A stretch of DNA of 42,231 nt, taken from assembly GCA_013297655.1 (NCBI GenBank), contig JAAFHV010000049.1:1-42231 (forward strand), written 5' to 3'. This document shows positions 7,855 to 26,241 of the stretch, piece after piece. The position numbers were made by a program, and so were the translations under genes. Within the stretch, counting starts at the first letter, position 1. Each line of letters begins with the position of its first letter. The notes under the pieces are model-generated. The model had not been told where the DNA came from and made no database searches. It saw only the letters and a program-made list of their open reading frames with translations. Source of the stretch: Myxococcales bacterium (GTDB lineage: Bacteria; Myxococcota_A; Polyangia; Polyangiales; Polyangiaceae).

Positions 7855-7882
7855 GGGCGCAACGCACACGAGCTTAGCGCAT

Positions 7883-7900
7883 CGCGACCAGTCGGTCGCG
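7883..7900. promoter_or_regulatory. Inverted repeat in divergent intergenic region
   Basis: A perfect 7-bp inverted repeat, CGCGACC-AGTC-GGTCGCG, sits 29 bp upstream of the kinase start and 70 bp upstream of the YrdC-like gene. Its position suits an operator for either gene, but no regulator can be named. Confidence 0.4.
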
Positions 7901-7933
7901 GGCATCGGGCTCGACGCGTCACTTCTTTGACTC

Positions 7934-7952
7934 GCCCAGGACCACCCTGGGC
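7934..7952 (+). promoter_or_regulatory. 5'-leader hairpin directly before the ribosome binding site
   Basis: GCCCAGG-ACCAC-CCTGGGC forms a perfect 7-bp stem that ends one base before the AGCAGGAG ribosome-binding sequence (7953-7960) of the YrdC-like gene. A hairpin so close to the ribosome site could limit or protect translation initiation. It could equally be an operator. Confidence 0.4.
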
Positions 7953-7969
7953 AGCAGGAGCTATTTGCC

Positions 7970-8714: not shown

Positions 8715-9575
8715 CTACGAGGGGGACCGCCGGGTCGGCCGCTTCTGCACCATCACCGACGGCGGCTTCCCGAAGTGCTCGCGAAACGCCACTGTGAACG
8801 AGGCGGGGTTCTCGTAGCCGACCCGCAACGCGACCTCGGAGATCGTGCCGTATCCGCTCCGGAGGAGCACGAGCGACTCTTCGAGACGTCGCGCGCGCCA
8901 ATGCTCTCCCGGACCGTGTCCGAGCTCGCGGCGAAACGCGCGTAGGAGGCTGCTCTCGCTCGTGCCGATCGCCTTCGCCAGCGCCGCCATCGGCTCCGGA
9001 GCGAAGAGTCGCGACTCGATGCGAGCGAGCGCGCGCTCCACCATCTCGCTGTGGCGATGGGCGGAGCTCGCGCGGTCCGTGCCGCTCTTTCGATCGCGAA
9101 GCAGGAAGAAGATCTCCTTCGCGATTTCGGTCTCCAGGAAGCGGGTCGCGACGTTGTCGTCGGCGGCGAGCACGGTGCGCTCGAAGACGTACCGGTGCAC
9201 GATCTCGTGGACCCAGACCGTCCTCGGGAGGAGCTCGGCGACGGTGAGCCACGCGCGGAACTGGCCAGCATCGACCCCGAGCGCGACGAACGCGCGCGCC
9301 GTTTTCTCGATCAGGTCGTCCGTAAGACGGAGGAAAAATAGGCGCCCGCCCGCCGCGCGTGTGGTCGCTCGAGCGGTCGCCCGGTGCGGACACACGAGCA
9401 TCGTGGCGTGGTCTACCACGTAGGATTCGCCCGCAAGATCCAAGGTCGCGTGGGTGCGCTCGGCGCCGACGACGAGCGAGATGGGCTCGAGCACGCGTCG
9501 CGTCGCTCGCTCGGGGAGGAGCCCGACCACCCCGAGCCCCAGCCGCCCGCGGGTTGACGGTTTTTGCTGGATCAT
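8715..9575 (-). CDS. AraC-family transcriptional regulator
   Basis: About 286 residues from the ATG at 9575 (MIQQKPSTRG); longer in-frame starts would run into the divergent amylase gene. The N-terminal about 190 residues resemble the cupin-type effector domain of AraC-family regulators (VVDHATMLVCPHR, RLFFLRLTDDLIEK). The C-terminal about 95 residues are a standard double helix-turn-helix: ALAKAIGTSESSLLRAFRRE, then ISEVALRVGYENPASFTVAF, then REHFGKPPS. It is divergent from the alpha-amylase with 65 bp between the starts, so it is the obvious candidate to control amylase expression and its own gene (inference). It converges with the YrdC-like gene, 73 bp apart. Confidence 0.9.
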   Translation of the reverse strand: MIQQKPSTRGRLGLGVVGLLPERATRRVLEPISLVVGAERTHATLDLAGESYVVDHATMLVCPHRATARATTRAAGGRLFFLRLTDDLIEKTARAFVALGVDAGQFRAWLTVAELLPRTVWVHEIVHRYVFERTVLAADDNVATRFLETEIAKEIFFLLRDRKSGTDRASSAHRHSEMVERALARIESRLFAPEPMAALAKAIGTSESSLLRAFRRELGHGPGEHWRARRLEESLVLLRSGYGTISEVALRVGYENPASFTVAFREHFGKPPSVMVQKRPTRRSPS

Positions 9576-9640
9576 TGCCCGGCCTCGCACGGCTCGTGAC
9601 GGCGTCGCACGGTAAGAAGGGTGCATCGAAAGGCGGCACG

Positions 9641-11215
9641 ATGCACCTAGGAACTCGGACTTTGGCACTCGTGACGCTCCTCCTCCTCGGCGGGTGCGCG
9701 TCCGGCGAGGTGCGCGACGATGCGCTACCAGCCGCTTCGTTCCCGCCCGCAGCGACACCGACCCCGTCGACGAGCACGCCCCCTCCGGTATCGGCCGCCC
9801 TCGATTCGGAGGCTCGCGCGACGAAGGCGCTTCCCGATCGTCCTGCGCTTCCGACCGGGCCGCGGACCACGATGGTGCACCTCTTCGAGTGGCGCTGGGC
9901 GGACGTCGCTCGCGAGTGCGAAACGACCCTCGGTCCGGGAGGTTTCGCGGCGGTGCAGGTCTCCCCTCCACAAGAGCACGCCGAGCTGCCGACGCACCCG
10001 TGGTACGAGCGCTACCAGCCCGTGAGCTATCGCCTCGTCAGTCGAAGCGGCGATCGCGCCGCGTTCGTCGATATGGTGCGGAGGTGCAAAGCCGTCGCGG
10101 TCGATATCTACGTCGACGCGGTGCTGAACCATATGTCGTTCGTCGAATCCGGAGTAGGCAGTGGCGGTACTTCGTTCTCGCGCACGAGCTACCCCGGGAT
10201 TTACGATAGTCGCCACTTTCATGGCTGCGGGCGCGAGATCCGCGACCAGGGCTCGCGCGACGAGATTCACACCTGCGAGCTTGCCACTCTTCCGGACCTC
10301 GACACCGGCAACGAGCACGTTCGGAATATACTCGCGGCGTATCTGCAAGATCTCGTCGACGTCGGCGTAGCGGGTATTCGCGTCGACGCGGCAAAGCATA
10401 TATCCCCCACTGACTTGCAGGCGATCTTCGGTCGTGTGCGAGGGCCGCTCTACGTGTATCAAGAGGTCATCGACAACGACGGCCAAGGGGCCGTCACGTC
10501 GCAGGAGTACACCCCGCTCGGCGACGTGACCGAGCTTCGTTATGGCGCCGAGCTGAGTCGCGTGTTCCGGAATGGCAAGCTCGCCTGGCTCGAGACGTTC
10601 GGCGCACGCTGGGGATTCCTCGATAGCGCCGCCGCGATCGCGTTCGTCGACAATCACGACAACCAGCGCGGCCATGGGAGCGGCAACCCGCTCACGTCCG
10701 CCGAACGCGAGCTTTACGAGCTCGCGGTCGTGTTCATGCTCGCGTGGCCTTATGGCTACCCGCAGATCATGTCGAGCTACGCCTTCTCCGGCCCGAACGT
10801 GGGGCCCCCCTCCGACGCCGACGGCAAGACCAGGAGCGCCCTCACCCCGACAGGCGAGTGCGCTGCGGGCTGGATTTGTGAGCATCGATGGCCCGCGGTT
10901 GCGAGCATGGTTCAGTTTCGGAACACGACCTCCACGGCCTTCGTCACGACGAATTTTTGGACCGATGGTGATCGGCAAATCGCGTTCGGGAGGGGTGGGC
11001 GAGGGTTCGTCGTCATCAACGCGAGCGGGACAGCCATCGCGCGGCGGCTGCAGACGTCCCTCCCCGAGGGCGACTATTGCGACGTAATCGCGCGCGCTCC
11101 GCTCGTCCGAGGGTGCGCCGGCGGCCCGCTTCACGTCGACCGCGACGGCAGGGTCGACGTGCGCGTCGCGCCGATGCGCGCGCTCGCCCTCCAGATCGAT
11201 CGCCGCGGGGCCTGA
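9641..11215 (+). CDS. Secreted lipoprotein alpha-amylase, GH13 animal type
   Basis: 524 residues from the ATG giving MHLGTRTL, preceded by an AAGGCGG ribosome site. A lipobox (LLGGC, Cys19) and a Pro/Thr/Ser-rich linker tether it to the envelope. The catalytic domain resembles animal alpha-amylases: VHLFEWRW near the start, nucleophile Asp249 in GIRVDAAKH, acid/base Glu275 in YQEVID, transition-state Asp340 in FVDNHDNQRGHG, then the C-terminal beta domain with WICEHRW, MVQFRN and YCDVI. It should endo-hydrolyse alpha-1,4-glucans. The chloride ligands Arg247 and Asn338 are kept, but the position equal to pancreatic Arg337 is Gln375 (PQIMSSY), which suggests chloride independence. The divergent AraC gene is the likely regulator. 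Confidence 0.93.
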   Translation: MHLGTRTLALVTLLLLGGCASGEVRDDALPAASFPPAATPTPSTSTPPPVSAALDSEARATKALPDRPALPTGPRTTMVHLFEWRWADVARECETTLGPGGFAAVQVSPPQEHAELPTHPWYERYQPVSYRLVSRSGDRAAFVDMVRRCKAVAVDIYVDAVLNHMSFVESGVGSGGTSFSRTSYPGIYDSRHFHGCGREIRDQGSRDEIHTCELATLPDLDTGNEHVRNILAAYLQDLVDVGVAGIRVDAAKHISPTDLQAIFGRVRGPLYVYQEVIDNDGQGAVTSQEYTPLGDVTELRYGAELSRVFRNGKLAWLETFGARWGFLDSAAAIAFVDNHDNQRGHGSGNPLTSAERELYELAVVFMLAWPYGYPQIMSSYAFSGPNVGPPSDADGKTRSALTPTGECAAGWICEHRWPAVASMVQFRNTTSTAFVTTNFWTDGDRQIAFGRGGRGFVVINASGTAIARRLQTSLPEGDYCDVIARAPLVRGCAGGPLHVDRDGRVDVRVAPMRALALQIDRRGA

Positions 11216-11601: not shown

Positions 11602-12894
11602 TTAGCGGGCCGGCGAGCGGGCCCACGTCGTGAGGGGCGTTCCGACCCGCGCATAGAGCAGCGCCTCCAATACGATGCCATTCGTATTCAAGGTGAGGGC
11701 GCGGTTCGGACGGTCTCCCTCTTCGTAGAAGCCGGCGAAAGCACCGGCCTTCGGGTCGCCGATCCATCGCATGGCCTTGTAGACACGCTCGGTGTCGGTG
11801 TTGCGGAAGAGCACGTGCCAGCCGATGGCGGCCTTTAGGCTGCTCCCCCTCTTGGATTCGGCTTCGTGACCGGAGGCATCGAGAGTGGTCCATGCTTTTC
11901 CGTCTACGTAGACCGAGTTGTAGACGAACCATGGTGAAGCATCGAGGTTGTCTTCCGACCACGCCGTCGGGACCCCAGTGCGTCGACCGCGTCGGATCTG
12001 GGCGAGGAGGACGCGCCCGGCGAGGTTGCTCGAGAGTGCCGCAAAACCATTTTCGAGGCCGTCGAGGACGTAAGGTTCGCTCGTGACGTAGTTGTGCGCC
12101 TCGGAGTCGTAGGTGTCGCGGCCGTCGACGGGGACGTAGATGTCCTCCACGGCGACGTAGCGAAGGTGGGCGAAGCTCGAGGCCTCTTTCGCGACGATGC
12201 CGATCTTGGCGAGGCCGTAGGCGGCGTACTGTTCGTAGCCGAGGCGCCCCTCTTGTTCGTAGGCCTCGGTCACGCCTCGGACGTCCGTCCCCATCAGGCG
12301 CCCGTCGCGCGCGAGCCGTTCGAGCTTCCAGCGAGCGAACACTGCCCGGCACGCCTCGCGGTGTCGCGGATACCGATCTCCGACGATCGTGAGCCACGAC
12401 GCGATGCGGCCCAAGTCGAGAGCAGAGAATCCAATTTCCTTCCTCGTCGTCACTTGCCCGTATCCAGTGGGGTAGAGCGCCTCGGCGTTGTACGCCTTGT
12501 TCGGCAGCTCGTTTCGATACAATGGTATCGCCGCGAGCGTCGAGAGGACACGAGCCATCCAATCGTCGAAGGCGGGGCGCTCTAGAATGCCGAGCTCGTG
12601 GGCCGCCGTCATGCCGGCGAGCTGGCTCGCGGCATCCCACATCGTGGTGGCGGGGAACGCGGCCGCCGACGACACGAGCCCGTTCTGGAGGCGGTTCTTC
12701 TCGAAGTAGGCCCACGCGGTCCGAGCGAGGGCGGCATCTTCCTCGGACAGCTCGACCGCGCGCGGGTGAGGCTTCGGGACGAAGCGCGTCTCCGCGGTAG
12801 TGAGCGCCGCGTGAGCGAGCGACGTGGCGACGAGAATGACGAGCGTGACGTGGAACGCGCGTGCACGGGCTACGATCACGTGGAATTTAGGCAT
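11602..12894 (-). CDS. DUF3131 protein A, exported
   Basis: 430 residues from the ATG giving MPKFHVIV. A hydrophobic segment (VTLVILVATSLAHA) is a signal peptide, so the protein acts outside the cytoplasm. The rest is a single DUF3131-type domain sharing with the two paralogues at 18383-21183: LPNKAYN, GFSALDLGR, EGRLGYEQYA, SEPYVLDGLENGF, AWSEDNLDASPWFVYN and NTNGIVLEALL. The alternation of helices and conserved Trp/Tyr/Glu/Asp motifs suggests an (alpha/alpha) barrel of the kind used by glycosidases (inference). The gene starts 8 bp after the OpgC-like gene stop, so the two form one operon. A role in trimming or modifying a glucan-like polymer fits the neighbourhood, but no enzymatic activity can be read from the sequence. 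Confidence 0.85.
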   Translation of the reverse strand: MPKFHVIVARARAFHVTLVILVATSLAHAALTTAETRFVPKPHPRAVELSEEDAALARTAWAYFEKNRLQNGLVSSAAAFPATTMWDAASQLAGMTAAHELGILERPAFDDWMARVLSTLAAIPLYRNELPNKAYNAEALYPTGYGQVTTRKEIGFSALDLGRIASWLTIVGDRYPRHREACRAVFARWKLERLARDGRLMGTDVRGVTEAYEQEGRLGYEQYAAYGLAKIGIVAKEASSFAHLRYVAVEDIYVPVDGRDTYDSEAHNYVTSEPYVLDGLENGFAALSSNLAGRVLLAQIRRGRRTGVPTAWSEDNLDASPWFVYNSVYVDGKAWTTLDASGHEAESKRGSSLKAAIGWHVLFRNTDTERVYKAMRWIGDPKAGAFAGFYEEGDRPNRALTLNTNGIVLEALLYARVGTPLTTWARSPAR

Positions 12895-12902
12895 GTTGTT
12901 GC

Positions 12903-14087
12903 TCAGCGGGGGACGATGTTGAAGAGGAACCGTGAGCGAACCATGGCGAGCAGCGCGACGAGGACTCCGAGCTGTACGATGGTGGTGATTTGGGCACTCT
13001 GCATCGGGAGGCCGAGCGCGTGCCACGCGACGACGAACGGGATATGGACGACGAACACGTACAGCGAGCTCTGACCGAGTGCGACGAGGCCAGGCCCGAT
13101 CGTGCGCGCGAAGAGCCGGTAGAAGCGGTCGAATAGCGAAAAAATCAACGTGAAGAGCGCAGCGGCGCTCGGGAGCCGCGCGAAGCCCATGCTGCTCCTG
13201 TCGGTCGCCGCGGTCCAAAACGCGCGGTCTACGACGCCGACCGGCCAAACCCCGAGCCGCGTGTCCAGGTGATTGGCAACCACCGAGGCGGCGACGCCCG
13301 CGACCGCGAGGATGGGAAGCAGCCAGCCCGGCGCGCGCCGGAGCACGTTGGACAGCGCCGTTCGGTGATAGCCGAATACGAATCCGACCACGTAGACGAG
13401 CTGCCACGCCGCGAGAACGAAGTACGGATGCTCGCGACCGAGCGGAGTCGCGCTGAGCGCGTAAGGGTGGAATTGGTGGAAGGCCCACGCCGCCGCGGAC
13501 GCGAGGAGTAGCGGCGCCGTCCACCCGCGTCGGAGCGCATAGAGCGCGACGGGGGACGCGCAGAGGAGCAGCACGTAGAGCTGGAGGACATCGAGTAGGC
13601 GCGGCGAAACGCCGAAAATGGGTATCGCGAGCATGGCCTTCCACGGTGGCGTGGCGAGCTCGCGAAAGATGGGGGCAGCGGCCCCGGCGTGAACGAGCGT
13701 GACGACCGCGGCGACGACCGCGAGCACGAGGTAGGTGCGGTACAGCGTCCCGGCGCGAGCGACGAGCGCGCGGCTCGCGGCGCGGAGCCCGCCGTCCTCG
13801 ACCCGCCGCAACGACGCGAAGCCGAGGACGAACCCAGAGAGAAAAACGAACGCTTCCGCTGCGCTTACGTAAATGCGGCCTTGGGTAACCGCATTGAGGT
13901 AGGAGCTTCCGGTGAGGTGGTTCGTCACCATGACGACGATCGCGAGCCCTCGCGCCATGTCGATGCGAAGGTCGCGCGAGCCATCGGCGACGTAGCGGAA
14001 GCCGGACAGAACCGACCCCCGCGACCTGGCTGGGGGCCTCACGGTGACCACGGCGTCGCGTGATTGGGGGAGGGTCGCCATGCGCAT
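12903..14087 (-). CDS. OpgC-like membrane acyltransferase
   Basis: 394 residues with about ten membrane segments after a cytoplasmic N-terminus of about 40 residues. The sequence RIDMARGLAIVVMVTNHL followed by AAEAFVFLSGFVLGFA is the N-terminal signature of OpgC-domain proteins, and LGQSSLYVFVVHIPFV near the C-terminus is the matching final block. OpgC in Proteobacteria adds succinyl groups to osmoregulated periplasmic glucans from the cytoplasmic acyl pool. Here the substrate is more likely the polymer made by the divergent GT2 operon. The gene heads a two-gene leftward operon with DUF3131 protein A. Its start lies 190 bp from the divergent GH2 gene, so both operons can be co-controlled. The acyl donor is unknown. 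Confidence 0.85.
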   Translation of the reverse strand: MRMATLPQSRDAVVTVRPPARSRGSVLSGFRYVADGSRDLRIDMARGLAIVVMVTNHLTGSSYLNAVTQGRIYVSAAEAFVFLSGFVLGFASLRRVEDGGLRAASRALVARAGTLYRTYLVLAVVAAVVTLVHAGAAAPIFRELATPPWKAMLAIPIFGVSPRLLDVLQLYVLLLCASPVALYALRRGWTAPLLLASAAAWAFHQFHPYALSATPLGREHPYFVLAAWQLVYVVGFVFGYHRTALSNVLRRAPGWLLPILAVAGVAASVVANHLDTRLGVWPVGVVDRAFWTAATDRSSMGFARLPSAAALFTLIFSLFDRFYRLFARTIGPGLVALGQSSLYVFVVHIPFVVAWHALGLPMQSAQITTIVQLGVLVALLAMVRSRFLFNIVPR

Positions 14088-14277
14088 GAGAACGGCGTCG
14101 CGGGCCGCGACTTAACGCGCTCTCGGGTCCTACCTTCGCCATCCCTCGTCGGGACCACCGAAGCCGTCGCCGCCGCATCCGACCGCCTTCGTTGCGATCC
14201 CGCGGTAGTGACGACCGACCTCGGTCCGAAGCTCGGTAAAGACTGAACGCGACCCTCCGCGCGCCGTTCTACGGACC
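14088..14277. promoter_or_regulatory. Divergent control region of the polysaccharide locus
   Basis: The 190 bp between the two divergent polysaccharide operons must hold both promoters. I see no clear -35/-10 or sigma-54 (GG-N10-GC) element. An inverted repeat GACCGA-CC-TCGGTC at 14213-14226 lies 52 bp upstream of the GH2 start codon and is a candidate operator. Confidence 0.45.
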
Positions 14278-16500
14278 ATGGAATCGACGACGAGCGTGAG
14301 GCGAGGGGCTTCGGTCCGACGATGGCTGCGGCGGATCGCGACGGCGGCCCTCGTCGTGATCGTGTTGTTGCTCGCGCGGCGGGGGGCGTGGAGCTCGCCG
14401 CAGGCGGCCGTACCTCCGATCGTGCGCGCGCGTCCCACCGCCGGGCCGGTCTCTCTCGACGGTCCGTGGAGCTTCCGCGTCGGCGACGCCGCGAGCGAAG
14501 TATCTCTCCCCGCGTCCTCGCCCGAGATGAGCGTTCCATCCAATTGGTACCAGCAAGGGCTCGACGTGGACGGGGTCGTCTGGTTCTCGCGTACCGTCGA
14601 GGTGCAGGCGCCGCTTTCGCACGGCCTCCTCCGGTTCGAGGGGGTCGATTACGAAGCACGGGTGTACTGGGACGACGCGGAGGTCGGACGCCATCGCGGA
14701 TACTTCGGCCCCTTCGCCTGTGAGCTCGGGCCCGTCGCGCCCGGGTCGCATCGACTCGCCGTGCGCGTCGACAGCCCCCGCGAAACGAAGGAAGCCTTCA
14801 GCCTCAAGAAGACCCTCATCAAGGGCGTCCTCGGGCACCACGATACGCGGCCCGGAGGGGCGTGGTCCGTGCGCGGCCAAGACGCGAACACGGGAGGTAT
14901 CTGGGGCAGCGTGAGCCTCGAGGATGGCGGGGCCGTCGCCGTCGACGATGTCCGCGTGACGACGCTCGCGACGGGACCCGAACGAGCCTCGCTCCGACTA
15001 CGCGCTCGCCTCGCACCGCGTGGAGAGGCCGCGAGCATCCGGTATCTCGTCCGTGACCCCGACGGCAACGTCGTCGCGGAGGGCTCGCTCGCAGACGTCG
15101 CTGCCCACGAAGCGGCGCGCGTCGCGGAGGTTCCCCTCGCCGTAGTCGGCCCCCGCTTGTGGTGGCCCCGCGAGCTCGGGAGCCAGCCTCTCTATAGCGT
15201 CGTCGTCGAAGTGGTGTCGGAGCGGGCGCGGACGACATCGGCGCCAGTACCGTTCGGCATCCGCACCGTCGTCAGGGACTTTCGCAGCAGGGTGGTCATC
15301 AACGGCGTGCCGACGTTCCTCCGCGGCGTCAACTACATCGGCTCGCTCTATCTCGCGACGCTCGGCGAGCGGGAGATTCGGCGCGACCTCGACCTCATGG
15401 TGGCGGCACACGTGAACGCAGTGCGAGTCCACGCGCACGTGACGTCGCCCGCGTTCTATCGCTTGGCCGACGCACTCGGCATTCTCGTCTGGCAGGACTT
15501 TCCACTCCAGTGGGGATACGACGACTCCGAGTCGTTCATTCGTGAGGCGGAGCGTCAAGTGAGCGAGATGGTCTCGCTCCTCGATCGGCACCCCTCGGTC
15601 GTGTTTTGGAGCGCAGACAACGAAGCTCCGTGGTCCTCCGATTGGATGAAGTGGAAGTACCCCGACTACGACCCCGACCAGAATCGCGCGCTCGGTGCCG
15701 CGCTCGCCAATCGCCTCGCGGAGGAAGATCCCGGTCGGCCATCGCAGGGGAACGCCCACCCCGCGGAGCACGCCTGGTCGGGCTGGTACGAAGGCACGTA
15801 TCGCGACTTCGCGAAGGCGACTGCGCAGCCGCTGATTACCGAATTCGGCGCGCAGGCGTTGCCCGATTTGTCGACTCTGAGGACGATCTTCCAGGATCGC
15901 GAGCTGTGGCCGATTCGCGGCGAGAACGCGCGAACCTGGGACTATCACAACTTCCAGCTCCACGAGACGCGCGACATCGCGAGAGTGCCAATCGGTACCA
16001 CGATCGAGGGCCTCGTCGCGGGCACCCAGGCGTATCAATCGAAGCTCACGCAGTTCGCCGCCGAGAATCTACGTCGTCAGAAATGGCAGCCGGTCGCGGG
16101 TATCTTCCAGTTCATGTTCGTCGAGCACTGGCCTTCGGTGAGCTGGGGCGTCGTCGACTACCTTCGCCGACCGAAGCCTGGATACGGCGCGCTCGGCCGC
16201 GCATTCCAGCCCGTCCTCGCGGTCGCCCACCGCCTACCGCGGTCGGCCCTCCTCGCCATCGACGTGGTCGACGATCGGCTCGTCGGTACGTCCGGTGCGG
16301 TGCTCCGCGTCGTCTACGAGGGAGAGAAGGATAGAACGACGGTGGAGCTACCGGTCGCCACCCGCGCGAACGACGTCGTGCGGCTCGTCGACGCCATCGC
16401 CTGTCCCTCGAGGGACGCGTCTCTCCGCCTCTCCCTCGTCGACGCGAGCGGGATAGTCGTCTCCGAGAATACCTACGCAGCGGGATATTTCGAACCATGA
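14278..16500 (+). CDS. Glycoside hydrolase family 2 enzyme, exported or membrane-anchored
   Basis: 740 residues. An Arg-rich N-terminus and one hydrophobic segment (ATAALVVIVLLLA) act as a signal anchor or signal peptide. The GH2 layout follows: jelly-roll sugar-binding domain (VPSNWYQQGLD ... VWFSRTVEV), immunoglobulin-like domain (RLWWPRELGSQPLY), then a TIM barrel (FLRGVNYIGS). The acid/base is Glu449 in FWSADNEAPW and the nucleophile Glu522 in LITEFGAQ. Family members cleave beta-linked galactosides, mannosides, glucuronides or glucosaminides; the specificity cannot be read here. The stop overlaps the GT2 start by 4 bp (ATGA). A beta-glycosidase translationally coupled to a polysaccharide synthase most likely trims or proofreads the nascent polymer in the periplasm (inference). 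Confidence 0.9.
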   Translation: MESTTSVRRGASVRRWLRRIATAALVVIVLLLARRGAWSSPQAAVPPIVRARPTAGPVSLDGPWSFRVGDAASEVSLPASSPEMSVPSNWYQQGLDVDGVVWFSRTVEVQAPLSHGLLRFEGVDYEARVYWDDAEVGRHRGYFGPFACELGPVAPGSHRLAVRVDSPRETKEAFSLKKTLIKGVLGHHDTRPGGAWSVRGQDANTGGIWGSVSLEDGGAVAVDDVRVTTLATGPERASLRLRARLAPRGEAASIRYLVRDPDGNVVAEGSLADVAAHEAARVAEVPLAVVGPRLWWPRELGSQPLYSVVVEVVSERARTTSAPVPFGIRTVVRDFRSRVVINGVPTFLRGVNYIGSLYLATLGEREIRRDLDLMVAAHVNAVRVHAHVTSPAFYRLADALGILVWQDFPLQWGYDDSESFIREAERQVSEMVSLLDRHPSVVFWSADNEAPWSSDWMKWKYPDYDPDQNRALGAALANRLAEEDPGRPSQGNAHPAEHAWSGWYEGTYRDFAKATAQPLITEFGAQALPDLSTLRTIFQDRELWPIRGENARTWDYHNFQLHETRDIARVPIGTTIEGLVAGTQAYQSKLTQFAAENLRRQKWQPVAGIFQFMFVEHWPSVSWGVVDYLRRPKPGYGALGRAFQPVLAVAHRLPRSALLAIDVVDDRLVGTSGAVLRVVYEGEKDRTTVELPVATRANDVVRLVDAIACPSRDASLRLSLVDASGIVVSENTYAAGYFEP

Positions 16501-18386
16501 GCGCCACCGCCAGCCACCGTTCTCCAGTCACGGTCGATACGGCAAAACCGGTCATCGCGGCGCCTTCGCCGGCGTCGCCCACCGCCGCTGCCGAAGAGCA
16601 CTATTTCGCGAAGTTCGAGGGCCGGCAGCCGCCGCGTCCGGTGCCGGCGAGCCGTACGCGGGACTTCGCGTTCCAAGCGCTCGCGTCGGCGGCGTTCTTC
16701 CTCGGCATTCACTACTTGGTCTGGCGGTGGCGCAGCTCGCTCGTCGGGGTTCCGCTCTGGATCGGGGTTCCGCTCGTGGCAGCCGAGACGCTCGCCTTCG
16801 TAGGGACGGTCTTGTTCTTTCTGTCGATTTGGCGCACGGCAGATACGCCCCGCCCGGCGTGCCCAGTCCACGTCGGCGACGTTCAGGGAACCTGCGACGG
16901 TGAGATTCGTCCGCTCGTCGTCGACGTCTTCTTCCCGACGTACAACGAAGACGTAGAGCTCGTGCGACTCTCGATCCGCGACGCGAAGGCGATGACCTAT
17001 CCGCACCCTATCGACGTGCGGATTCACGTCCTCGACGATGGAAAGCGCGCGGAGATGAAGCGCGTCGCCATAGAGGAAGGCGTCGGCTACATCACGCGGT
17101 CCGTCAACGTCGGGTTCAAAGCGGGAAACATTCGAAACGGCATGGAGCAAACCGAGGGCGATCTCCTCGTCATTTGCGACGCCGATACTCGCCCGCTCCC
17201 GAGCCTCCTCGAGGAGACGCTCGGGTTCTTTCGCGACCCCAAAGTCGCGTGGGTACAAACTCCGCAGTGGTTCTACGATCTCGACGAGGGCACTTCGATG
17301 ACCGAATGGCTCGCGGCGCGCGCCGGAACGCCCGGTCGCTGGCTCGGTCGCGCGGTCGAACGCTGCATCGGCCCCGTCATGCTCGGGGAAGACCCCCTCG
17401 GGAACGACCCGCGCATGTTCTACGACGTGATCCAGCGGCGGCGCAATTGGGCCAACGCCGCGTTCTGCTGCGGCGCGGGCAGCGTGCACCGGCGAGAAGC
17501 GGTCATGGAGGCGGCTCTCAAGGCGCTCGGCTCGTCCGTCGAGGCGACCCTCGCTCCGCTCGAGCGCGACATCGCGTGCGAAGCGACGCGCGACATGCTC
17601 GCGACCGCGGTGGCGTCCGAAGCGGCGCGCGAAATCGAGCTCACCCCGTACAAGTTCCACGTGTCGGAGGATATCTACACGAGCATCGTCCTCCACTCCG
17701 ACCAGGAGCGTCGTTGGAAGTCCGTGTTTCACCCTACGGCGGTGTCGAAGATGCTATCGCCACAGGATCTTTTGACCTGGTCGATTCAGCGCTTCAAGTA
17801 CGCGGGCGGTACGCTGGATATCTTTCTCCATGACAGCCCGCTCCGGCGCGCGGGCCTCGACCCGTGGCAGAAGCTCGCGTACGGGGCGACCGCCTATTCG
17901 TATTTGGCGCCGTTGTGGACGGTCGTCTTTCTGCTTGCGCCGCTGGTTTACCTGTTCGCTGGCGTTTCGGCAGTCAACGCCTACGAGGCCGACTTTTACG
18001 CCCACCTCGTCCCGTTCCTCGTGATCAATCGGCTCGCCTTCATGTTGGCGACCTGGGGGGTGTCGACCCACCGCGGAGAGCAGTACTACCTGGCGTTCTT
18101 CTGGCTCAACATCAAGGCCCTCTGGGACGTCGCGTTGGGCCGGCCCGTCAAATTCCACGTGACGCCGAAAACCAAACAATCCGGCAATCATGCCGGGCTC
18201 GTCGCGCCGCACCTTATCCTCCTCGCTCTCTATGCCGTTGGATCGTTGGTCGGCGCGCATCGAGTGGTGAGCGCGGGAGGAGCGGGGCTCGGGCCACTCC
18301 TCGTCAATCTGTTCTGGGCAGTAAACAACGTCGCCGCGCTTTCGATCATCGTTCGCGCGGCCTTTCGGAAGGTGGAGCCGTCATGA
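16497..18386 (+). CDS. BcsA-like processive glycosyltransferase (GT2), no PilZ
   Basis: 629 residues. Two N-terminal membrane helices (about 55-110) precede a cytoplasmic GT2 domain opening with FFPTYNEDVELV. Catalytic motifs: DDG at 180-182, DAD at 228-230, FCCGAGS at 323-329, SED at 390-392 (usually TED), and QRFKY at 431-435 in place of QxxRW. Four or more C-terminal helices follow, ending at residue 629 with no PilZ domain, unlike cyclic-di-GMP-activated cellulose synthase. About 40 extra residues lie between the CCG and SED motifs compared with cellulose synthases. It should polymerise a beta-linked sugar from UDP-sugar and extrude it through the inner membrane. It overlaps both neighbours by 4 bp. 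Sugar and linkage are unknown. Confidence 0.92.
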   Translation: MSATASHRSPVTVDTAKPVIAAPSPASPTAAAEEHYFAKFEGRQPPRPVPASRTRDFAFQALASAAFFLGIHYLVWRWRSSLVGVPLWIGVPLVAAETLAFVGTVLFFLSIWRTADTPRPACPVHVGDVQGTCDGEIRPLVVDVFFPTYNEDVELVRLSIRDAKAMTYPHPIDVRIHVLDDGKRAEMKRVAIEEGVGYITRSVNVGFKAGNIRNGMEQTEGDLLVICDADTRPLPSLLEETLGFFRDPKVAWVQTPQWFYDLDEGTSMTEWLAARAGTPGRWLGRAVERCIGPVMLGEDPLGNDPRMFYDVIQRRRNWANAAFCCGAGSVHRREAVMEAALKALGSSVEATLAPLERDIACEATRDMLATAVASEAAREIELTPYKFHVSEDIYTSIVLHSDQERRWKSVFHPTAVSKMLSPQDLLTWSIQRFKYAGGTLDIFLHDSPLRRAGLDPWQKLAYGATAYSYLAPLWTVVFLLAPLVYLFAGVSAVNAYEADFYAHLVPFLVINRLAFMLATWGVSTHRGEQYYLAFFWLNIKALWDVALGRPVKFHVTPKTKQSGNHAGLVAPHLILLALYAVGSLVGAHRVVSAGGAGLGPLLVNLFWAVNNVAALSIIVRAAFRKVEPS

Positions 18387-19738
18387 AGTTCGTCGAAGGG
18401 CTGTTTGCTGCCCGCTCCCATTTCGCCTTCCTCGTCGGCCTCACGATCGCCCTCGGCACGATGGGCGCACTCGGCGCCACGAAGGGCCCCGCCACGCCCG
18501 CGAAGGCCGTCGACGTGGTGAGCGCGCTCGGCACCTCGTCGAGCGACGAGCGGGTCACGACGGTCTTTCGCCCGCTCGACCAAAAGGAGAAGGGGTGGGC
18601 AGAGACCGCGTGGCGCTACTTCGAGAACGAATACCACCCCGAGACGGGCTTCGTGAGCTCCGTCCGGGCGTATCCGTCGGCCACGCTCTGGGATTTGGGG
18701 TCGTATGCGCTCGGGCTCATCTCGGCGCGGGATCTCGACGTTATCGACGAAGCGAAGTTCGACGCGCGAATGGCAGCGCTGCTCGCCGGGCTCGAGAAGC
18801 TCGAGCTCGTCGAAGGCATACTCCCGAACAAGGCCTACAACGCGGTAACTGGCCGCATGGTGGACTACGAAAACCACGATGCGCCCAACGGTGTGGGGTG
18901 GTCCGCTCTCGACGTCGCGCGCATCGGCGTCCCCTTCACCGTCGTCGCGTGGCGGTTCCCGAAGCACACTCCGGCGGTGAAGAGGCTCCTCGCCCGCTGG
19001 CGACTGTCCTCCCTCGTCGCCGGCGGGGCGCTGGTCGGCGCGCGCCGCACGGAGACCGGAGCTCTCGAGCGAGTCCAAGAGGGGCGCCTCGGCTACGAAC
19101 AGTATGCAGCGCGCTCCCTCGTCCTCCTCGGTCACGACGCGAGTCGGTCCGGCAGGGTCGATCTCGACTCCGAGGTCGTGGAAGTATCGGGCCAGAAGGT
19201 GCTCGCCGACGCGCGTCGGTCCGCGGACCACGGTGGCACCCACGCGGGCGTGCTCTCCGAGCCGTACGTGCTCGAGGCGATCGAGCTCGGCTTCGGGCCC
19301 GAGTCGGCCTCGATCGCGACCTCGATTCTGCTCGCTCAAAAACGGCGCTTCGAGGCGACTGGAATCCTCACGGCAGTGTCAGAAGACAACATCGACCGTG
19401 CTCCCTACTTCGTTTATTCGACGGTGGTCGACGATCGTCGTCCGTGGGCGGTCTATTCGCCGGACGGCCGCGAGGCTCTCTCGGCGCGAACCTTCTCCAC
19501 GAAGGCCGCGATGGGCCTGTCGTATGTATTCGAGGGGCCCTACGCGCGGCGCCTTCGCGCTGGCCTCGACGGGCTCTCCGATGGCAACGTGGGCTTCTTT
19601 TCGGGGCGCTACGAGGAGGGCGCGCGCACGAACTCGGCCGTGACTGCGAATACGAATGGCATCGTTCTCGAGGTGCTCGCGTTCGCCAAGCGAGGTCCCG
19701 TCGTCCGCGCGGCGCAGACTTCCGCGGGCGCACCGTGA
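18383..19738 (+). CDS. DUF3131 protein B, exported
   Basis: 451 residues with an N-terminal signal peptide (FAFLVGLTIALGTMGALGA). Its single DUF3131-type domain parallels protein A motif for motif: WAETAWRYFENEY, LPNKAYNAVTGRM, GVGWSALDVAR, VQEGRLGYEQYAA, LSEPYVLEAIELGF, AVSEDNIDRAPYFVY, FFSGRYEEGARTN and TANTNGIVLEVLAF. The ATG overlaps the GT2 stop by 4 bp and the stop overlaps the GTG of the next paralogue by 4 bp, so expression is coupled to the synthase. I infer a periplasmic role on the polymer (binding, trimming, or cyclising). The conserved Glu/Asp in the EGRLGYE and SEDN motifs are the best candidates for catalytic residues. Confidence 0.86.
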   Translation: MKFVEGLFAARSHFAFLVGLTIALGTMGALGATKGPATPAKAVDVVSALGTSSSDERVTTVFRPLDQKEKGWAETAWRYFENEYHPETGFVSSVRAYPSATLWDLGSYALGLISARDLDVIDEAKFDARMAALLAGLEKLELVEGILPNKAYNAVTGRMVDYENHDAPNGVGWSALDVARIGVPFTVVAWRFPKHTPAVKRLLARWRLSSLVAGGALVGARRTETGALERVQEGRLGYEQYAARSLVLLGHDASRSGRVDLDSEVVEVSGQKVLADARRSADHGGTHAGVLSEPYVLEAIELGFGPESASIATSILLAQKRRFEATGILTAVSEDNIDRAPYFVYSTVVDDRRPWAVYSPDGREALSARTFSTKAAMGLSYVFEGPYARRLRAGLDGLSDGNVGFFSGRYEEGARTNSAVTANTNGIVLEVLAFAKRGPVVRAAQTSAGAP

Positions 19739-21183
19739 CCCGCGTAGGGTCGGCGCGGGCGCGGCTCGGCTTCCTGGTCGCGTGGGTCCTCTCCACGGTG
19801 CACTCCGCGCATGCGGCGGCACCTCCCGGACCTCCCGACGCGGCGCCCGTCTGTGTCGCTTCGCCGCCAGCGTCGCAGCCGCCAGCCGCGGCGCGACCCG
19901 AGGCAACGCGTTCCACCTGCTTCACGCCTGCGCTCGACCGTTCGTGCTTCGCTCCGCGTCCTACCTGCGATGGCGACCTCCGTGTCGCCAAGATCGCTTG
20001 GAAGTATTTCGAAAACAACTATCAACCCACGACTGGACTCGTCAACGCGGCCGACAAGTATCCGTCGACGACGGAGTGGGACGCGGCGTCGTCGCTCGCG
20101 GGGACCATCGCGGCGCGCGAGCTCGATATCATTACGGCCAAAGAGTTCGACGATCGGATGACCGCGTTCCTCGCCACGATGAACACGCAGAAGCTGTTCG
20201 GGGGGGTCGCGCCCAACAAGGCGTACAACACCATCACCGGGGCGATGGTCGACTATAACAATAGGGCGTCCGAGGGGATTGGATATTCTGCGCTCGACCT
20301 CGCACGCCTCGTATCGTGGCTCAGTAATCTCGCGTGTCTCCATCCTCGCCACGCGCATGCCGCCAAGCTCGCGATCGAGCGATGGAACCTCGGCCGCGTC
20401 CTCCACGACGGGCAGATGTTCGGAACGTACGTCGATACGGCGACCAAGGCCGTTCGCGAGGTCCAAGAGGGGAGGCTCGGCTACGAGCAGTACGGGGGAA
20501 AGGTGTTTGCCTCACTCGGCTTCGACCAGTCGGTCGCGGCGAGCTACCGGAACGTCTCGGCATCGACCGTCACGATTCTGGGCGTGCCAATCGCGGTCGA
20601 CCTCCGGGACCCGCGAAAGCTCGGCGCGTACAACTACGTCGTCACCGAGTCGTACGCGCTCGACGCGATGGAGCTCGGGCTCGACTCCGTCAATACGCCG
20701 CTGGTGCGAAATATCTTCGAGGTGCAGAAGCGTCGGTGGCAAAAGACCGGAATCGTGACTGCGGTGTCCGAGGACAATATCGACCGCGCGCCGTACTTTC
20801 TCTACAATACCATCTACGCTGCAGGCTCGGCGTGGAACACCATTACCGATACGGGGGTCGACCACGACGCGCTCAAGTCCGTGTCCGTCAAGGCTGCGTA
20901 CTCCCTCGCCGCGCTCTACCCGACGGAATCCTACTCGAACGTGCTCGTCGACCGCGTCGCGAACGCGTACGATCCGGACCGCGGGTACTTCTCCGGTGTC
21001 TACGAATCCGGTATTGGCTACAATCGCGCGACGACGGTCAACACGAACGGGATCGTCCTGGAGGCGATCCTCTTCAAGCGTCTCGGCGCGGTAGGCTCGC
21101 TCTGCTCGCGCTGCGGCAAGGCGCTGAAGATCACTCCTCCGCCGCGCGACTGCGGATGCGCCGCATCGCGCGTGGGGAAGTGA
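19735..21183 (+). CDS. DUF3131 protein C with Cys-rich ends, exported
   Basis: 482 residues from a GTG start (VTRVGSARAR) that overlaps the preceding stop by 4 bp; the frame is open further upstream, but that lies inside the preceding gene. A signal peptide (LGFLVAWVLSTVHSAHA) is followed by a Pro/Ala linker with several Cys, then the DUF3131 domain (VAKIAWKYFENNY, APNKAYNTITGAM, GIGYSALDLAR, VQEGRLGYEQYGG, VTESYALDAMELGL, AVSEDNIDRAPYFLYN, TVNTNGIVLEAILF). Unlike A and B it ends in CSRC...CGC, a zinc-ribbon-like or disulfide-bonded tail. It is followed after 6 bp by the beta-barrel gene. B and C share EDNIDRAPYF exactly, so this pair probably arose by tandem duplication. Confidence 0.86.
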   Translation: MTRVGSARARLGFLVAWVLSTVHSAHAAAPPGPPDAAPVCVASPPASQPPAAARPEATRSTCFTPALDRSCFAPRPTCDGDLRVAKIAWKYFENNYQPTTGLVNAADKYPSTTEWDAASSLAGTIAARELDIITAKEFDDRMTAFLATMNTQKLFGGVAPNKAYNTITGAMVDYNNRASEGIGYSALDLARLVSWLSNLACLHPRHAHAAKLAIERWNLGRVLHDGQMFGTYVDTATKAVREVQEGRLGYEQYGGKVFASLGFDQSVAASYRNVSASTVTILGVPIAVDLRDPRKLGAYNYVVTESYALDAMELGLDSVNTPLVRNIFEVQKRRWQKTGIVTAVSEDNIDRAPYFLYNTIYAAGSAWNTITDTGVDHDALKSVSVKAAYSLAALYPTESYSNVLVDRVANAYDPDRGYFSGVYESGIGYNRATTVNTNGIVLEAILFKRLGAVGSLCSRCGKALKITPPPRDCGCAASRVGK

Positions 21184-21189
21184 GCGCGA

Positions 21190-22572
21190 ATGGGGCTCGC
21201 TCGCAGCGGCGCCTTGGTCGTCGCGATTCTGCTCGTCGCGCCGAACGCCTCGTCGTTACCCAAGCGCTTGTCGACCGCGGTTCGTTGCGCGAGCGACGAA
21301 GCGCAGGCGCGCGACGCCCTCGCACGGCTCGCCGCGACACGCGATTCCGAGCTCGAGCTCCCGCCCAGCCTCGAGCATGACGGCCACGCGCATCGAGCCT
21401 CTGCTGCGGAGGTGGACGAAATACTTTACGAGCTCCACGTGGTTCGTTCGCGATTTCCGCGTCTTGCCGCGAGCGCCGAGGCGCTCGTCGTAGGCTATCG
21501 TTACTGCGCCATCTTCGACGGGACCACATTGTGGGACGTCGTCGCGGACGGCGGTGTCACGCGTCGCGTTCGCCCGACAGCCGCCTGGCCCGTGTGGCGC
21601 GGATTCGAGGCTTGGGGTTTCCTCGGCGCTCGTCGTCCGGCACCGGCGCTCGTCGAGGACGGGCCGCTCGGACACGATCAGCGAGGCTGGTATTTGGGCG
21701 AGCTCGCTTCCGAACGCTGCTTTCCACACCCCATTTTCGGAGTCGAGCGCACCGAGCGTCCGAGCTTCGAGCAACTGCAGAGCGACACGACGGGAGAGCC
21801 CGCGCCCGCGATCGGTGAACCGTGCGACGGCCCGAGCGTACCCCCGTCGTCGAGCGCGCTCGCCTCCGCGCCTCCGCGGCCGGCGAAGGCGCCCGTGCGC
21901 GCCGTGAGCCCATCGCGTTCGGCTGCAATCGTCGCCGTTCCAGCGAGCGCGCTCGGGGCCGCGATGGCGACATCGAACGACGCGAGCGGACTCGGATTCG
22001 CCGGGCGGTTCGTGATCGATGGCAAGCTCGACGGCGTCCCATCTGCCGGGGCGGGCGTCTCGTACAGCCCGCGGCCCGGATACTTCGCCCGGGTCGGGGT
22101 CATGCAGAGGCTCGGCGCGGGGCCGGAGGCCACGTCCTACAGCTATGGGCTAGGCTACGACGACTGGCACGAAGGCACGTTCTCGGCGCAGCTCAACGAC
22201 TGGGGACCTCGTTCGTTCGAGGCGCGCCCGAACCTCGCGTCGGCGGCAGTCGATCTCGGGTACAAGGTGCCGCTGCCGAAGGCGCTCGGTCGCTGGCTAT
22301 CGTGCGGAGTGTCGTTGAACTTCCCGTTCTCCGCTGCGCCGGGCACGGTCGTCACCACCGTGCTCAAACCATTCGGCGACCTGTACGTCCTCGCTGGCCT
22401 TCGGATGTCGCCCTTCGCGTCGACGTTCGGAACGTGGTTCTACGGCTTCGGGTTTTCGAGCTACCACCCATTCACGTTCGGGCTCGCGTATGCCAACTGG
22501 GGCCCCAACAAGGCGTTCGTGCCCAACTTCGACAAGGGGTCTGTCGTCGGCACGTTCTCGTGGGCGCTCTAA
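21190..22572 (+). CDS. Putative outer-membrane beta-barrel, polysaccharide export or assembly
   Basis: 460 residues, starting 6 bp after DUF3131 protein C, so the last gene of the five-gene operon. A signal peptide (LVVAILLVAPNASS) is followed by a soluble domain of about 180 residues, a Pro/Ser/Ala-rich linker (about 210-255), and a C-terminal domain of alternating aromatic and Gly residues typical of beta strands, ending in FSWAL. Two internal strand pairs resemble each other: YGLGYDDWHEGTFSAQLNDW and YGFGFSSYHPFTFGLAYANW, each followed by GP. I do not recognise a named family. Context and shape suggest an outer-membrane component that exports or holds the polymer; a simple structural barrel is the alternative. 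Confidence 0.7.
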   Translation: MGLARSGALVVAILLVAPNASSLPKRLSTAVRCASDEAQARDALARLAATRDSELELPPSLEHDGHAHRASAAEVDEILYELHVVRSRFPRLAASAEALVVGYRYCAIFDGTTLWDVVADGGVTRRVRPTAAWPVWRGFEAWGFLGARRPAPALVEDGPLGHDQRGWYLGELASERCFPHPIFGVERTERPSFEQLQSDTTGEPAPAIGEPCDGPSVPPSSSALASAPPRPAKAPVRAVSPSRSAAIVAVPASALGAAMATSNDASGLGFAGRFVIDGKLDGVPSAGAGVSYSPRPGYFARVGVMQRLGAGPEATSYSYGLGYDDWHEGTFSAQLNDWGPRSFEARPNLASAAVDLGYKVPLPKALGRWLSCGVSLNFPFSAAPGTVVTTVLKPFGDLYVLAGLRMSPFASTFGTWFYGFGFSSYHPFTFGLAYANWGPNKAFVPNFDKGSVVGTFSWAL

Positions 22573-22707: not shown

Positions 22708-23940
22708 TTAGGAATCGTTCGACCCGAGCTGGCGGCGCCGAATCATCTCCACGAGGGTGGTCCGATTCAGCCCGAGGAGCATCGCGGCGCGGTTCTTATT
22801 TCCGCCGGTGCGCTCGAGGGCCTGGTTGATCATCGAGTTTTGGTACGTCTCGGTGCACGAGTAGAGATTCACTCCGGCGGCGGGGAGCTCGTCCGGGAAC
22901 GCGCCGTCGAGTCGCGCCTTCGGCGCCGTGCTTTCACGGTTCGGCTCGGGCGTCGATTGCGTCGGGGCGGCGGCCAGCGTCCGCATCGAAGGCGGGGGCG
23001 GGGGCGGTCGCGATCCGCGCGCGCTCTCGGGCCCCGTCGTTCCGAACATATCCTCGATTTCGAGGCGCGGACCGTGCGCGAGAAGCACGCCCCGCTCGAC
23101 CGCGTTCTCGATCTCGCGCACGTTGCCCGGCCACGAGTGCGAAGCTATGGCGTCGAGTGTGCTCGCCGCGAAGCCCTCGAGATCCTCCCGTCCGGAGGCG
23201 ATCGAGAATCTGCGAAAGAAGTGTTGCGCGAGCACCTGCGCGTCGTCTCCGCGCTCTCGGAGCGCGGGCAAGCGAAGCTGGATCACGTTCAATCGATAGT
23301 AAAGATCCTCGCGGAAGCGACCCGCCGCGACCTCGGCGGCCAAGTCCCGGTTCGTCGCAGCGACGATGCGTACGTCACAGCGAATCGCGCGGGACTCTCC
23401 CACCGGCGTGAACTCGCGCTGTTGCAGCACGCGCAGGAGCTTCACCTGCGCCGCCATCGGAAGCTCGCCCACCTCGTCCAAGAACAGCGTGCCGCCCTCG
23501 GCCGTCGCGATGTGACCGCGGCGCGTTTGTTGTGCCCCCGTGAAGGCGCCGCGCACGTGGCCGAACAGCTCGCTCTCGACGAGATCGGCTGGTATCGCTC
23601 CGCAGTTGATCGTGACGAGGGGCCCCTCTGCGCGCGAGCTTGCGTCGTGGAGAGCGGCGACCGCGAGCTCCTTTCCCGTGCCGCTCTCGCCGGTCACGAG
23701 GACGGTGCACATCGAGTGTGCCACGCGGTCGATCGTATCGAGGAGCGCGGCGATCGACGGGTGGTGACCTATCATCGGACCGCGGCTCGTCTCGCGGAGG
23801 GCAAGCGCGACGAGGCGAATTTCGGAGACTTCCTTTTCTGGCGGCACGCTCGAAGCGCGCAGTCGCCGGTGCGGGAATTCGTCGATTGCGCGGAAGGAAC
23901 GTGAGGCGCTCGCTGCGCCGCGGTTGCTCGCGTATTTCAC
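22708..23940 (-). CDS. Sigma-54 activator (AAA+ and Fis HTH) without receiver
   Basis: 410 residues from a GTG start; the stop of the upstream gene is 2 bp away. There is no N-terminal receiver; about 55 poorly conserved residues come before the AAA+ domain. Motifs: Walker A GESGTGKE, sigma-54 contact loop GAFTGA, Walker B GGTLFLDEVGEL, arginine-finger region YYRLNVIQLRLPALRER, and SHSWPGNVREIENAVERG. A linker of about 80 residues with six consecutive prolines separates the ATPase from a C-terminal Fis-type helix-turn-helix (GGNKNRAAMLLGLNRTTLVE). It activates sigma-54 promoters, and without a receiver must be controlled by another protein or by abundance. It is the nearest regulator to the polysaccharide operon, with which it converges. 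Confidence 0.92.
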   Translation of the reverse strand: MKYASNRGAASASRSFRAIDEFPHRRLRASSVPPEKEVSEIRLVALALRETSRGPMIGHHPSIAALLDTIDRVAHSMCTVLVTGESGTGKELAVAALHDASSRAEGPLVTINCGAIPADLVESELFGHVRGAFTGAQQTRRGHIATAEGGTLFLDEVGELPMAAQVKLLRVLQQREFTPVGESRAIRCDVRIVAATNRDLAAEVAAGRFREDLYYRLNVIQLRLPALRERGDDAQVLAQHFFRRFSIASGREDLEGFAASTLDAIASHSWPGNVREIENAVERGVLLAHGPRLEIEDMFGTTGPESARGSRPPPPPPSMRTLAAAPTQSTPEPNRESTAPKARLDGAFPDELPAAGVNLYSCTETYQNSMINQALERTGGNKNRAAMLLGLNRTTLVEMIRRRQLGSNDS

Positions 23941-24909: not shown

Positions 24910-26241
24910 CTAGCGACCGCCGCTTTCGCTCCGCTTGAGCTTCTCGACGAGCGTCGTTCGGTTGATCCGCAGGAGGTTGGCCGCGAGCGTCTTGTTGCCG
25001 CGAACGCGCTCCATCGCTTGTTCGATCAGGCTCCGTTCGAGGCGCGCGAGGGTGTCGGCGAGATCGAGCCCCGCGAGGGGCAGGGCCATGTCGCTCCGAA
25101 CCTGGCGCTCGTCGAGCGGAGGGACGTCGTCGGCCTCGAGGACGCCGGCGCCCTTCAAGACGACGGCGCGCTCCACCACGTTGGAGAGCTCTCGCACGTT
25201 CCCGGGCCAAGAGTGGCTCTCGAGGATCGTCATCGCAGTGTCCGATATGCCGGACACATTCCGGCCGTGCGCAGCGTTTGCGTCGGCGACGAACTTCCTC
25301 GCGAGCGACGGGATATCGCCCACACGTTCGCGGAGGGGAGGGAGGTGGAGCGGAATGACGTTCAATCGATAGAAGAGGTCTTCGCGGAAGGTGCCGTCGG
25401 CCACCATCTTCGTCAGATTGCGGTGGGTCGCGGCGATGAACCGTACGTCCGCGGTCACGGGAGTCGACTCGCCAAGCACTTCGTAGGTGCGTTCCTGAAG
25501 AACGCGCAAGAGCTTCACCTGGAGCACCGGTGACATGTCACCGATTTCGTCGAGGAACAGCGTCCCACCCTCGGCGACCTGGAACCGTCCGCGGCGACCG
25601 GTCGTCGCTCCGGTGAAGGCACCGCGGGCGTGTCCGAACAGCTCGCTCTCGAGGAGGGCCTCGGGGATTGCTCCGCAGTTCACCGCCGCGAACGCTCGCC
25701 CTCGTCGTTTGCTCGTCGCGTGAATCGCGCGCGCGATGACCTCCTTTCCGGTCCCGCTCTCGCCGGTGAGCAGCACGGTCGCGTCGGTGTCCGCGACGCG
25801 CTCGAGGGTTGCCAACACCCGCTTTAGCTCGGCGTTCGTGCTCGCCGGAAAGAAGGCCGGCGTCGACTCCCCCGTCGCGGTGGCGGCGCCTCGGCCGAGC
25901 ACGTCCTCGATGACGCTCGCGACGCTATCGGGCGTGAAGGGCTTCGCGAGGAAGTTCGCGGCTCCCTTTCGCATCGCGCCGACCGCCATCTCGACAGAGC
26001 CGTGACCGGTCACGATAATCACGGGTACTTTCGCGCGGATACCGGCCTCGAGCACATCGAAGCCCGAGCCATCGGGCATCTCCATGTCGGTCAGCGTGAG
26101 ATCGACCTTACGAGCTGAGAGCACGGTGGCCGCGCGAACGGAACCGTCTGCCGCAATGACCTCGTGCCCGAGTCGCGTCACGATGCGTCCGAGCACTGTT
26201 CGCGCGCTCGCGTCATCGTCGACCAAAAGAACGACAGCCAT
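24910..26241 (-). CDS. NtrC-type sigma-54 response regulator (REC-AAA+-Fis)
   Basis: 443 residues from the ATG giving MAVVLLVDDD; a start 7 codons upstream is possible. The receiver (1-120) carries the acidic pocket LVDDD, phospho-acceptor Asp52 in LTDMEMPDG, Thr in IIVTGHG and Lys in LAKPF. The AAA+ domain has GESGTGKE, GAFTGA, GGTLFLDEIGDM and SHSWPGNVRELSNVVERA. The C-terminal Fis helix-turn-helix reads GNKTLAANLLRINRTTLVEK. No kinase is adjacent; the hybrid kinases in this window are possible partners. Its HTH closely resembles that of the activator at 22708 (NRTTLVE in both), so the two may bind related sites. It is first in a leftward set of three genes. Confidence 0.93.
   Translation of the reverse strand: MAVVLLVDDDASARTVLGRIVTRLGHEVIAADGSVRAATVLSARKVDLTLTDMEMPDGSGFDVLEAGIRAKVPVIIVTGHGSVEMAVGAMRKGAANFLAKPFTPDSVASVIEDVLGRGAATATGESTPAFFPASTNAELKRVLATLERVADTDATVLLTGESGTGKEVIARAIHATSKRRGRAFAAVNCGAIPEALLESELFGHARGAFTGATTGRRGRFQVAEGGTLFLDEIGDMSPVLQVKLLRVLQERTYEVLGESTPVTADVRFIAATHRNLTKMVADGTFREDLFYRLNVIPLHLPPLRERVGDIPSLARKFVADANAAHGRNVSGISDTAMTILESHSWPGNVRELSNVVERAVVLKGAGVLEADDVPPLDERQVRSDMALPLAGLDLADTLARLERSLIEQAMERVRGNKTLAANLLRINRTTLVEKLKRSESGGR

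Follow-up and report, generated by a model that had tools for sequence, protein, structure and literature searches.

Introduction

The closest described counterparts of the locus considered here are synthase-dependent exopolysaccharide systems, such as those for cellulose (Bcs) and poly-N-acetylglucosamine (Pga), the pathway of osmoregulated periplasmic glucans (OpgGH, OpgC), and the SGL-fold glycosidases and transglycosidases, among them family GH189, whose general acid (E1356) and nucleophile (E1442) have been described (PMC10834661). The locus comprises seven genes within a stretch of 42,231 nucleotides from a Myxococcales bacterium (contig JAAFHV010000049.1, hereafter the window), which encode an OpgC-like acyltransferase, a GH2 glycoside hydrolase, a BcsA-like polysaccharide synthase of glycosyltransferase family 2 (GT2), three proteins with the domain of unknown function DUF3131, and a predicted outer-membrane barrel. 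We propose that it is likely a synthase-dependent polysaccharide system exporting an acylated beta-glucan with dedicated periplasmic (trans)glycosidases. Synthase-dependent polysaccharide export is a known kind of system, from whose described members this one departs in the subfamily of its synthase, in the enzymes that process the product and in the barrel.

With Bcs and Pga the locus shares a BcsA-like GT2, periplasmic glycosidases and an outer-membrane barrel, and a relative in Paracoccus adds a tetratricopeptide repeat (TPR) protein with a PgaA-type barrel, a further likeness to Pga. It differs from both in the QRFKY motif of the synthase, in which no PilZ domain was found, in having DUF3131 proteins instead of BcsZ or PgaB, in its small 12-stranded barrel with another N-terminal domain, and in the partner-switch genes that lie beside most of its relatives. 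It resembles the periplasmic glucan pathway in the OpgC-family acyltransferase adjoining the GT2, and departs from it in possessing an outer-membrane barrel and in belonging to a genome without an OpgG/OpgD match. The DUF3131 proteins, in turn, resemble GH189 and other SGL-fold enzymes in the predicted fold and in a Glu aligned to the GH189 nucleophile (PMC10834661, PMC12102758), and have a conserved Glu that is a candidate for the general acid, but form a separate family of stand-alone exported proteins encoded beside a BcsA-like GT2.

Loci of similar content have been listed before, only as accessory-genome genes: the Salmonella island SGI3, for which OpgC, a cellulose synthesis protein, a beta-galactosidase, an anti-sigma-factor antagonist and a serine phosphatase were given in 2012 (PMC3401170), and block 3b of Klebsiella pneumoniae, with a cellulose synthase, three DUF3131, OpgC, and an anti-sigma factor and its antagonist (PMC12974863). 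The partner-switch genes of both are missing from the window. Only three open-access papers mention DUF3131: besides the one on the Klebsiella block, one lists a Brucella gene and another a module in Shewanella, studied under salt shock, that has four DUF3131 genes. The open-access literature yielded no functional description of the system or of DUF3131, and nothing relevant on a partner-switched cellulose-like or exopolysaccharide system. An earlier note on this DNA, made from the sequence alone, knew of no characterised system with this set of genes, which holds as far as function goes and has to be qualified by the two listings made in passing; its view that this is a conserved, uncharacterised polysaccharide system is supported below by gene neighbourhoods and structure prediction.

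Gene organization of the locus

The content and order of the genes are as the earlier note had given them, a leftward operon of two genes diverging from a rightward operon of five:

11602-12894, minus strand: DUF3131-1, 430 residues; export signal recognized by eye at the N-terminus; by prediction a glycosidase or transglycosidase of the periplasm with an (alpha/alpha)6 fold
12903-14087, minus strand: OpgC-like membrane acyltransferase, 394 residues; Pfam OpgC_C
14088-14277: divergent intergenic region of 190 bp between the operons, presumably holding their promoters
14278-16500, plus strand: GH2 glycoside hydrolase, 740 residues; GH2 Pfam domains and one N-terminal hydrophobic segment
16497-18386, plus strand: BcsA-like GT2 polysaccharide synthase, 629 residues; Pfam GT2 family; QRFKY motif
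18383-19738, plus strand: DUF3131-2, 451 residues; Pfam DUF3131; adjoins the GT2 gene
19735-21183, plus strand: DUF3131-3, 482 residues; Pfam DUF3131; barrel-adjacent clade; predicted (alpha/alpha)6 barrel
21190-22572, plus strand: outer-membrane barrel protein, 460 residues; N-terminal domain, linker and predicted 12-stranded C-terminal beta-barrel

The genes for GH2, GT2, DUF3131-2 and DUF3131-3 overlap by 4 bp at each of their three junctions, as claimed earlier, and the 6 bp reported for the last junction, between DUF3131-3 and the barrel gene, are a gap instead of an overlap. The likely start of DUF3131-1 is an ATG at 12894, 8 bp past the OpgC stop. A Pfam scan of the window's proteins matched DUF3131 in full length in all three (E 1e-122 to 1e-125), and a search of the whole genome (9.9 Mb in 546 contigs) returned exactly these three matches, all inside the locus. 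With DUF3131 confined to this one place in the genome, and the gene set recurring in many genera, the locus is no chance grouping.

Conservation of the gene set across bacteria

A scan of GTDB genomes, based on alignment A2, since no part of the diverse alignment A1 of DUF3131 was sufficiently conserved for scanning, gave at least 570 confirmed relatives; 78 loci were kept. Neighbourhoods were searched with profiles made from the window and plasmid genes, and counted in 37 loci with full 10-kb flanks, chosen by similarity to DUF3131-3 and non-independent (many vibrios, Granulosicoccaceae), so that the counts describe this sample and give no rate in nature. GT2 was present in 33 of the 37, as was a SpoIIE/STAS/HATPase partner switch (scored by STAS); two or more DUF3131 genes occurred in 30, the barrel in 29, and GH2 or GH16, the latter standing in for GH2 in some loci, in 20. 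The pairing of GT2 with DUF3131 is the most conserved association, and the window's exact order, GH2-GT2-DUF3131-DUF3131-barrel, is also found in five other loci (L030, L034, L042, L043, L088). From one to four DUF3131 genes occur per locus, and the three paralogues emphasized earlier are thus true of the window and not a fixed number.

The gene set is present in Pantoea, Salmonella, Paracoccus, Vibrio, Thiothrix and Nostoc, and annotated plasmid loci of the first three combine OpgC, GT2 and three DUF3131. The settings of DUF3131 on Pantoea and Salmonella plasmids are near-identical, with HATPase-STAS-SpoIIE-barrel-OpgC leftward and GT2 followed by three DUF3131 genes rightward, then a hybrid kinase and GH2. 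The Paracoccus locus carries, instead of GH2, a GH16 closest to beta-1,3-1,4-glucanases, together with the TPR protein, which has a PgaA_barrel match; the barrel profile found no match there. The co-occurrence of DUF3131 with GT2, GH2 and OpgC, which the earlier note had proposed to look for, therefore recurs across phyla, in the 37 loci as well as in the annotated plasmids. No profile match to SpoIIE, STAS or HATPase was obtained in the window, and SpoIIE-type matches elsewhere in the genome number six.

Some plasmid loci have unusual genes. DUF3131 domains number four in the Nostoc locus, where one gene of 940 residues (L022:13848-16667, plus strand) encodes a fused pair. Near the same gene set, a Vibrio plasmid has an open reading frame of 1849 residues with dozens of RTX repeats and a GH16-profile match (L018:578-6124, minus strand). 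On a Sulfitobacter plasmid (L023:5196-11173, plus strand), a distant DUF3131 adjoins a fused polysaccharide deacetylase-GT2, another way in which DUF3131 and a synthase are combined.

Predicted fold and candidate catalytic residues of DUF3131

The AlphaFold2 model of DUF3131-3, built from 61 sequences (mean predicted local distance difference test score, pLDDT, 89.3; predicted template-modelling score, pTM, 0.84), is an (alpha/alpha)6 barrel. Its top structural match (Foldseek, VIA-align) is the GH189 structure 8wy1 (Z 36.6, root-mean-square deviation 2.8 over 354 residues), followed by GH144 (4qt9, 5gzh, 5gzk; Z 32-33), GH192/GH194 (8xuj, 8xuk; Z 29) and GH162 (6imu; Z 25.6); GH189/GH144-type folds overall span Z 25.4-36.6, with a clear drop to about Z 22 for unrelated barrels. 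Identity to SGL-fold enzymes in the structural alignments is 8-14%. A relationship to GH189 is also suggested by profiles: that of DUF3131 matches the N-terminal part of the 8wy1 sequence (E 1.3e-5) and, compared with a profile of the GH189 domains of myxobacterial cyclic glucan synthases, aligns across the domain at E 3e-8, a value from one comparison only, not scaled to a database and obtained with a large GH189 insertion cut out beforehand. Direct profile comparison with two GH144 sequences turned up nothing convincing, and phmmer with a single DUF3131 sequence found no relative in the PDB.

The profile alignment sets E346 of DUF3131 opposite the Glu of the SES motif in GH189, which residue counting identifies as the nucleophile E1442 (PMC10834661). 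E251, in a GYE motif, was placed opposite the general acid (E1356 of GH189, E211 of CpSGL) by eye and motif only, the profile alignment being poor there. E251 is invariant in the 61 alignment rows, whereas at position 346 five rows have Asp and the other 56 have Glu; both glutamates are kept in all three window proteins, each of which has an export signal recognizable by eye. The earlier suggestion that these proteins are exported and act on a sugar polymer fits the predicted GH189/GH144-like fold.

In a DUF3131 tree of 162 rows, made with a quick method, a GT2-adjacent, a barrel-adjacent (including DUF3131-3), a middle and a third-position clade can be distinguished, and clade and gene position are largely concordant across phyla. 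DUF3131-1 pairs with one close relative, a Nostoc plasmid protein, and the placement of both DUF3131-1 and DUF3131-2 is unsure, with long branches. Because the clades are separate and positionally stable, they support distinct roles for the paralogues and make the division of labour suggested earlier likelier. The GT2-adjacent copy of Pantoea (L019:12589-13920, plus strand) has Arg at the position aligned with E251 and Asp at that aligned with E346, and, judging from these changes, may be non-catalytic.

The synthase, acyltransferase and barrel

The motifs VLDDG, ICDADT and FHVSED of the GT2 protein are conserved and correspond to the DDG, DxD and (T/S)ED of processive GT2 synthases; its membrane helices follow from homology to BcsA, the closest among solved structures. 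Its QRFKY aligns to QRIRW/QRGRW of solved BcsA, so that the QxxRW acceptor motif is changed; QRFKY also predominates among the GT2 proteins of the related loci. The Pfam scan found no PilZ domain in its 629 residues, and it scores 230 bits against the curated cut-off of 699 for CelA (cellulose synthase), far under it. By CelA score, PilZ and acceptor motif, no characterised homologue puts these genes in cellulose synthesis, a placement that the earlier note had reckoned with.

The acyltransferase matches OpgC_C at E 2e-48 (165 bits against a Pfam cut-off of 21) and is the only such match in its genome, which has no matches to MdoG/OpgG/OpgD (GH186) and none to PF10091 (GH144/GH189-type). As the sole OpgC of a genome without these enzymes, it probably acts on the product of the locus, which is the simplest reading.

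The barrel protein belongs to no Pfam or NCBIfam family. Its model has 12 strands in the C-terminal part, which matches a 300-residue protein encoded in the loci of Pantoea, Salmonella and Vibrio, as well as the C-terminus of larger proteins in Thiothrix-type loci. The best fold matches include the porins KdgM, NanC and VhGalP (Z 12-13), along with autotransporter barrels and FapF. The predicted fold is that of an outer-membrane channel, with no finer assignment.

Proposed system and alternative readings

On the strength of its motifs and of what is known of the BcsA-type family, the inner-membrane GT2, of the QRFKY subfamily, would polymerise a beta-linked glycan, which is probably a beta-glucan, and extrude it. 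Once exported to the periplasm, the DUF3131 proteins would cut or transglycosylate the chain (trimming, branching or cyclising it), as their predicted fold and conserved Glu suggest, each of the three paralogues perhaps performing a different part of the processing. The membrane-anchored GH2, going by its family, may trim ends or mis-made chains; the OpgC-like enzyme, given its family and the absence of other known targets, would add acyl groups (succinyl, by analogy to OpgC); and the 12-stranded barrel would let the product out, as its predicted fold and the PgaA-type protein of the Paracoccus relative suggest. In most relatives the SpoIIE/STAS/HATPase switch beside the operon presumably controls it; none lies near the window operon. 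The earlier outline of synthesis, trimming, processing, acylation and export is thus supported overall, although we infer the sequence in which the steps occur and what the polymer is, as well as the enzymatic mode and export route.

Several findings weigh against this proposal. OpgC was detected in only seven of the 37 loci, with a profile built on few seeds; the best solved relative of the GH2 is a beta-mannosidase, not by itself suggestive of a glucan; and the structural scores of the barrel are moderate, with autotransporter domains among the matches. In addition, the SGL clan is said to be defined by residues including a Phe and a Tyr (F286, Y367 of XcSGL) (PMC12102758) that have no evident counterpart in DUF3131, where placement by eye, in a weakly aligned region, gives Ser/Thr and Arg. 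We predict from the model that DUF3131 functions in the manner of a glycosidase or transglycosidase with the SGL fold but, as these two residues lack a clear counterpart, we do not place it in that clan.

Membership of the OpgC family, in a genome without other OpgG or GH144/GH189-type enzymes, would also suit an osmoregulated periplasmic glucan pathway, in which GT2 makes a beta-1,2-type glucan retained in the periplasm, to be sized or cyclised by DUF3131 and succinylated by OpgC, with the barrel as an ordinary porin. We regard this as rather unlikely, since the conserved barrel in most of the 37 loci and the PgaA_barrel match of the Paracoccus TPR protein point to export, and the Paracoccus GH16 resembles enzymes for beta-1,3-1,4-glucans. 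A divergent cellulose-like (beta-1,4) system with DUF3131 replacing BcsZ is unlikely: the GT2 is indeed nearest BcsA among solved structures, and BcsZ shares the general (alpha/alpha)6 fold, but it comes lower in the fold list (Foldseek E 6e-5) than the far nearer GH189/GH144 folds (1e-8 to 1e-12), and the changed acceptor motif, the low CelA score and the PilZ result all run counter to cellulose. It is highly improbable that the locus serves the uptake or degradation of a glycan, a KdgM-like porin importing an external beta-glucan for GH2, GH16 and DUF3131 to degrade, as the resemblance of the barrel to the uptake porins KdgM and NanC, the several hydrolases and the alpha-amylase gene next door might suggest, given a core of membrane synthase and acyltransferase in tight operons with 4-bp overlaps, the primacy of the GT2-DUF3131 association, and no transporter annotated between the system genes in the Pantoea and Salmonella loci.

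A further reading, to which we attach only a tentative and rather doubtful status, would be a third biosynthetic route to beta-1,2-glucans, perhaps cyclic or branched, in which a BcsA-like GT2 works with separate exported GH189-like DUF3131 transglycosidases to make an acylated, exported polymer, the system having spread horizontally through several phyla.

Distribution, possible transfer and neighbouring genes

Among 379 sampled genomes of the window's phylum, DUF3131 was matched in 12 at the chosen limit and in full length in only five, and in none of the same-family genomes listed; a stringent GT2 search (E 1e-40) retrieved four of the 379, three of them also with full-length DUF3131. With so few carriers, the system is sporadic in this phylum. 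Relatives in Anaeromyxobacter are among the loci (L075, L078). The guanine-cytosine content of the locus resembles that of its surroundings, so nothing in it points to a recent transfer. That DUF3131 is missing from the listed genomes of the same family, and that DUF3131-3 is 60% identical to proteins of gammaproteobacteria, suggest, without proving it, an older transfer. A megablast search of the Salmonella locus against complete genomes of Escherichia coli gave no match.

Just beyond the barrel gene lie a sigma-54 activator (22708-23940, minus strand) and a sigma-54 response regulator (24910-26262, minus strand), possible local regulators where relatives have the SpoIIE/STAS switch. To the left, two genes (5923-8001, minus strand; 569-3061, plus strand) encode hybrid histidine kinases that have PAS and receiver domains, and, convergent with the leftward operon, there is a GH13 alpha-amylase-type gene with a C-terminal domain (9359-11215, plus strand) that has no sign of belonging to the system.

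Implications

These results take DUF3131 from a domain of unknown function to a testable glycosidase/transglycosidase family, and define an uncharacterised polysaccharide operon in Enterobacterales (on plasmids and islands), vibrios, filamentous gammaproteobacteria, alphaproteobacteria, cyanobacteria and Myxococcota. They would also give a handle on the role of the Klebsiella block and of the Salmonella SGI3 island.

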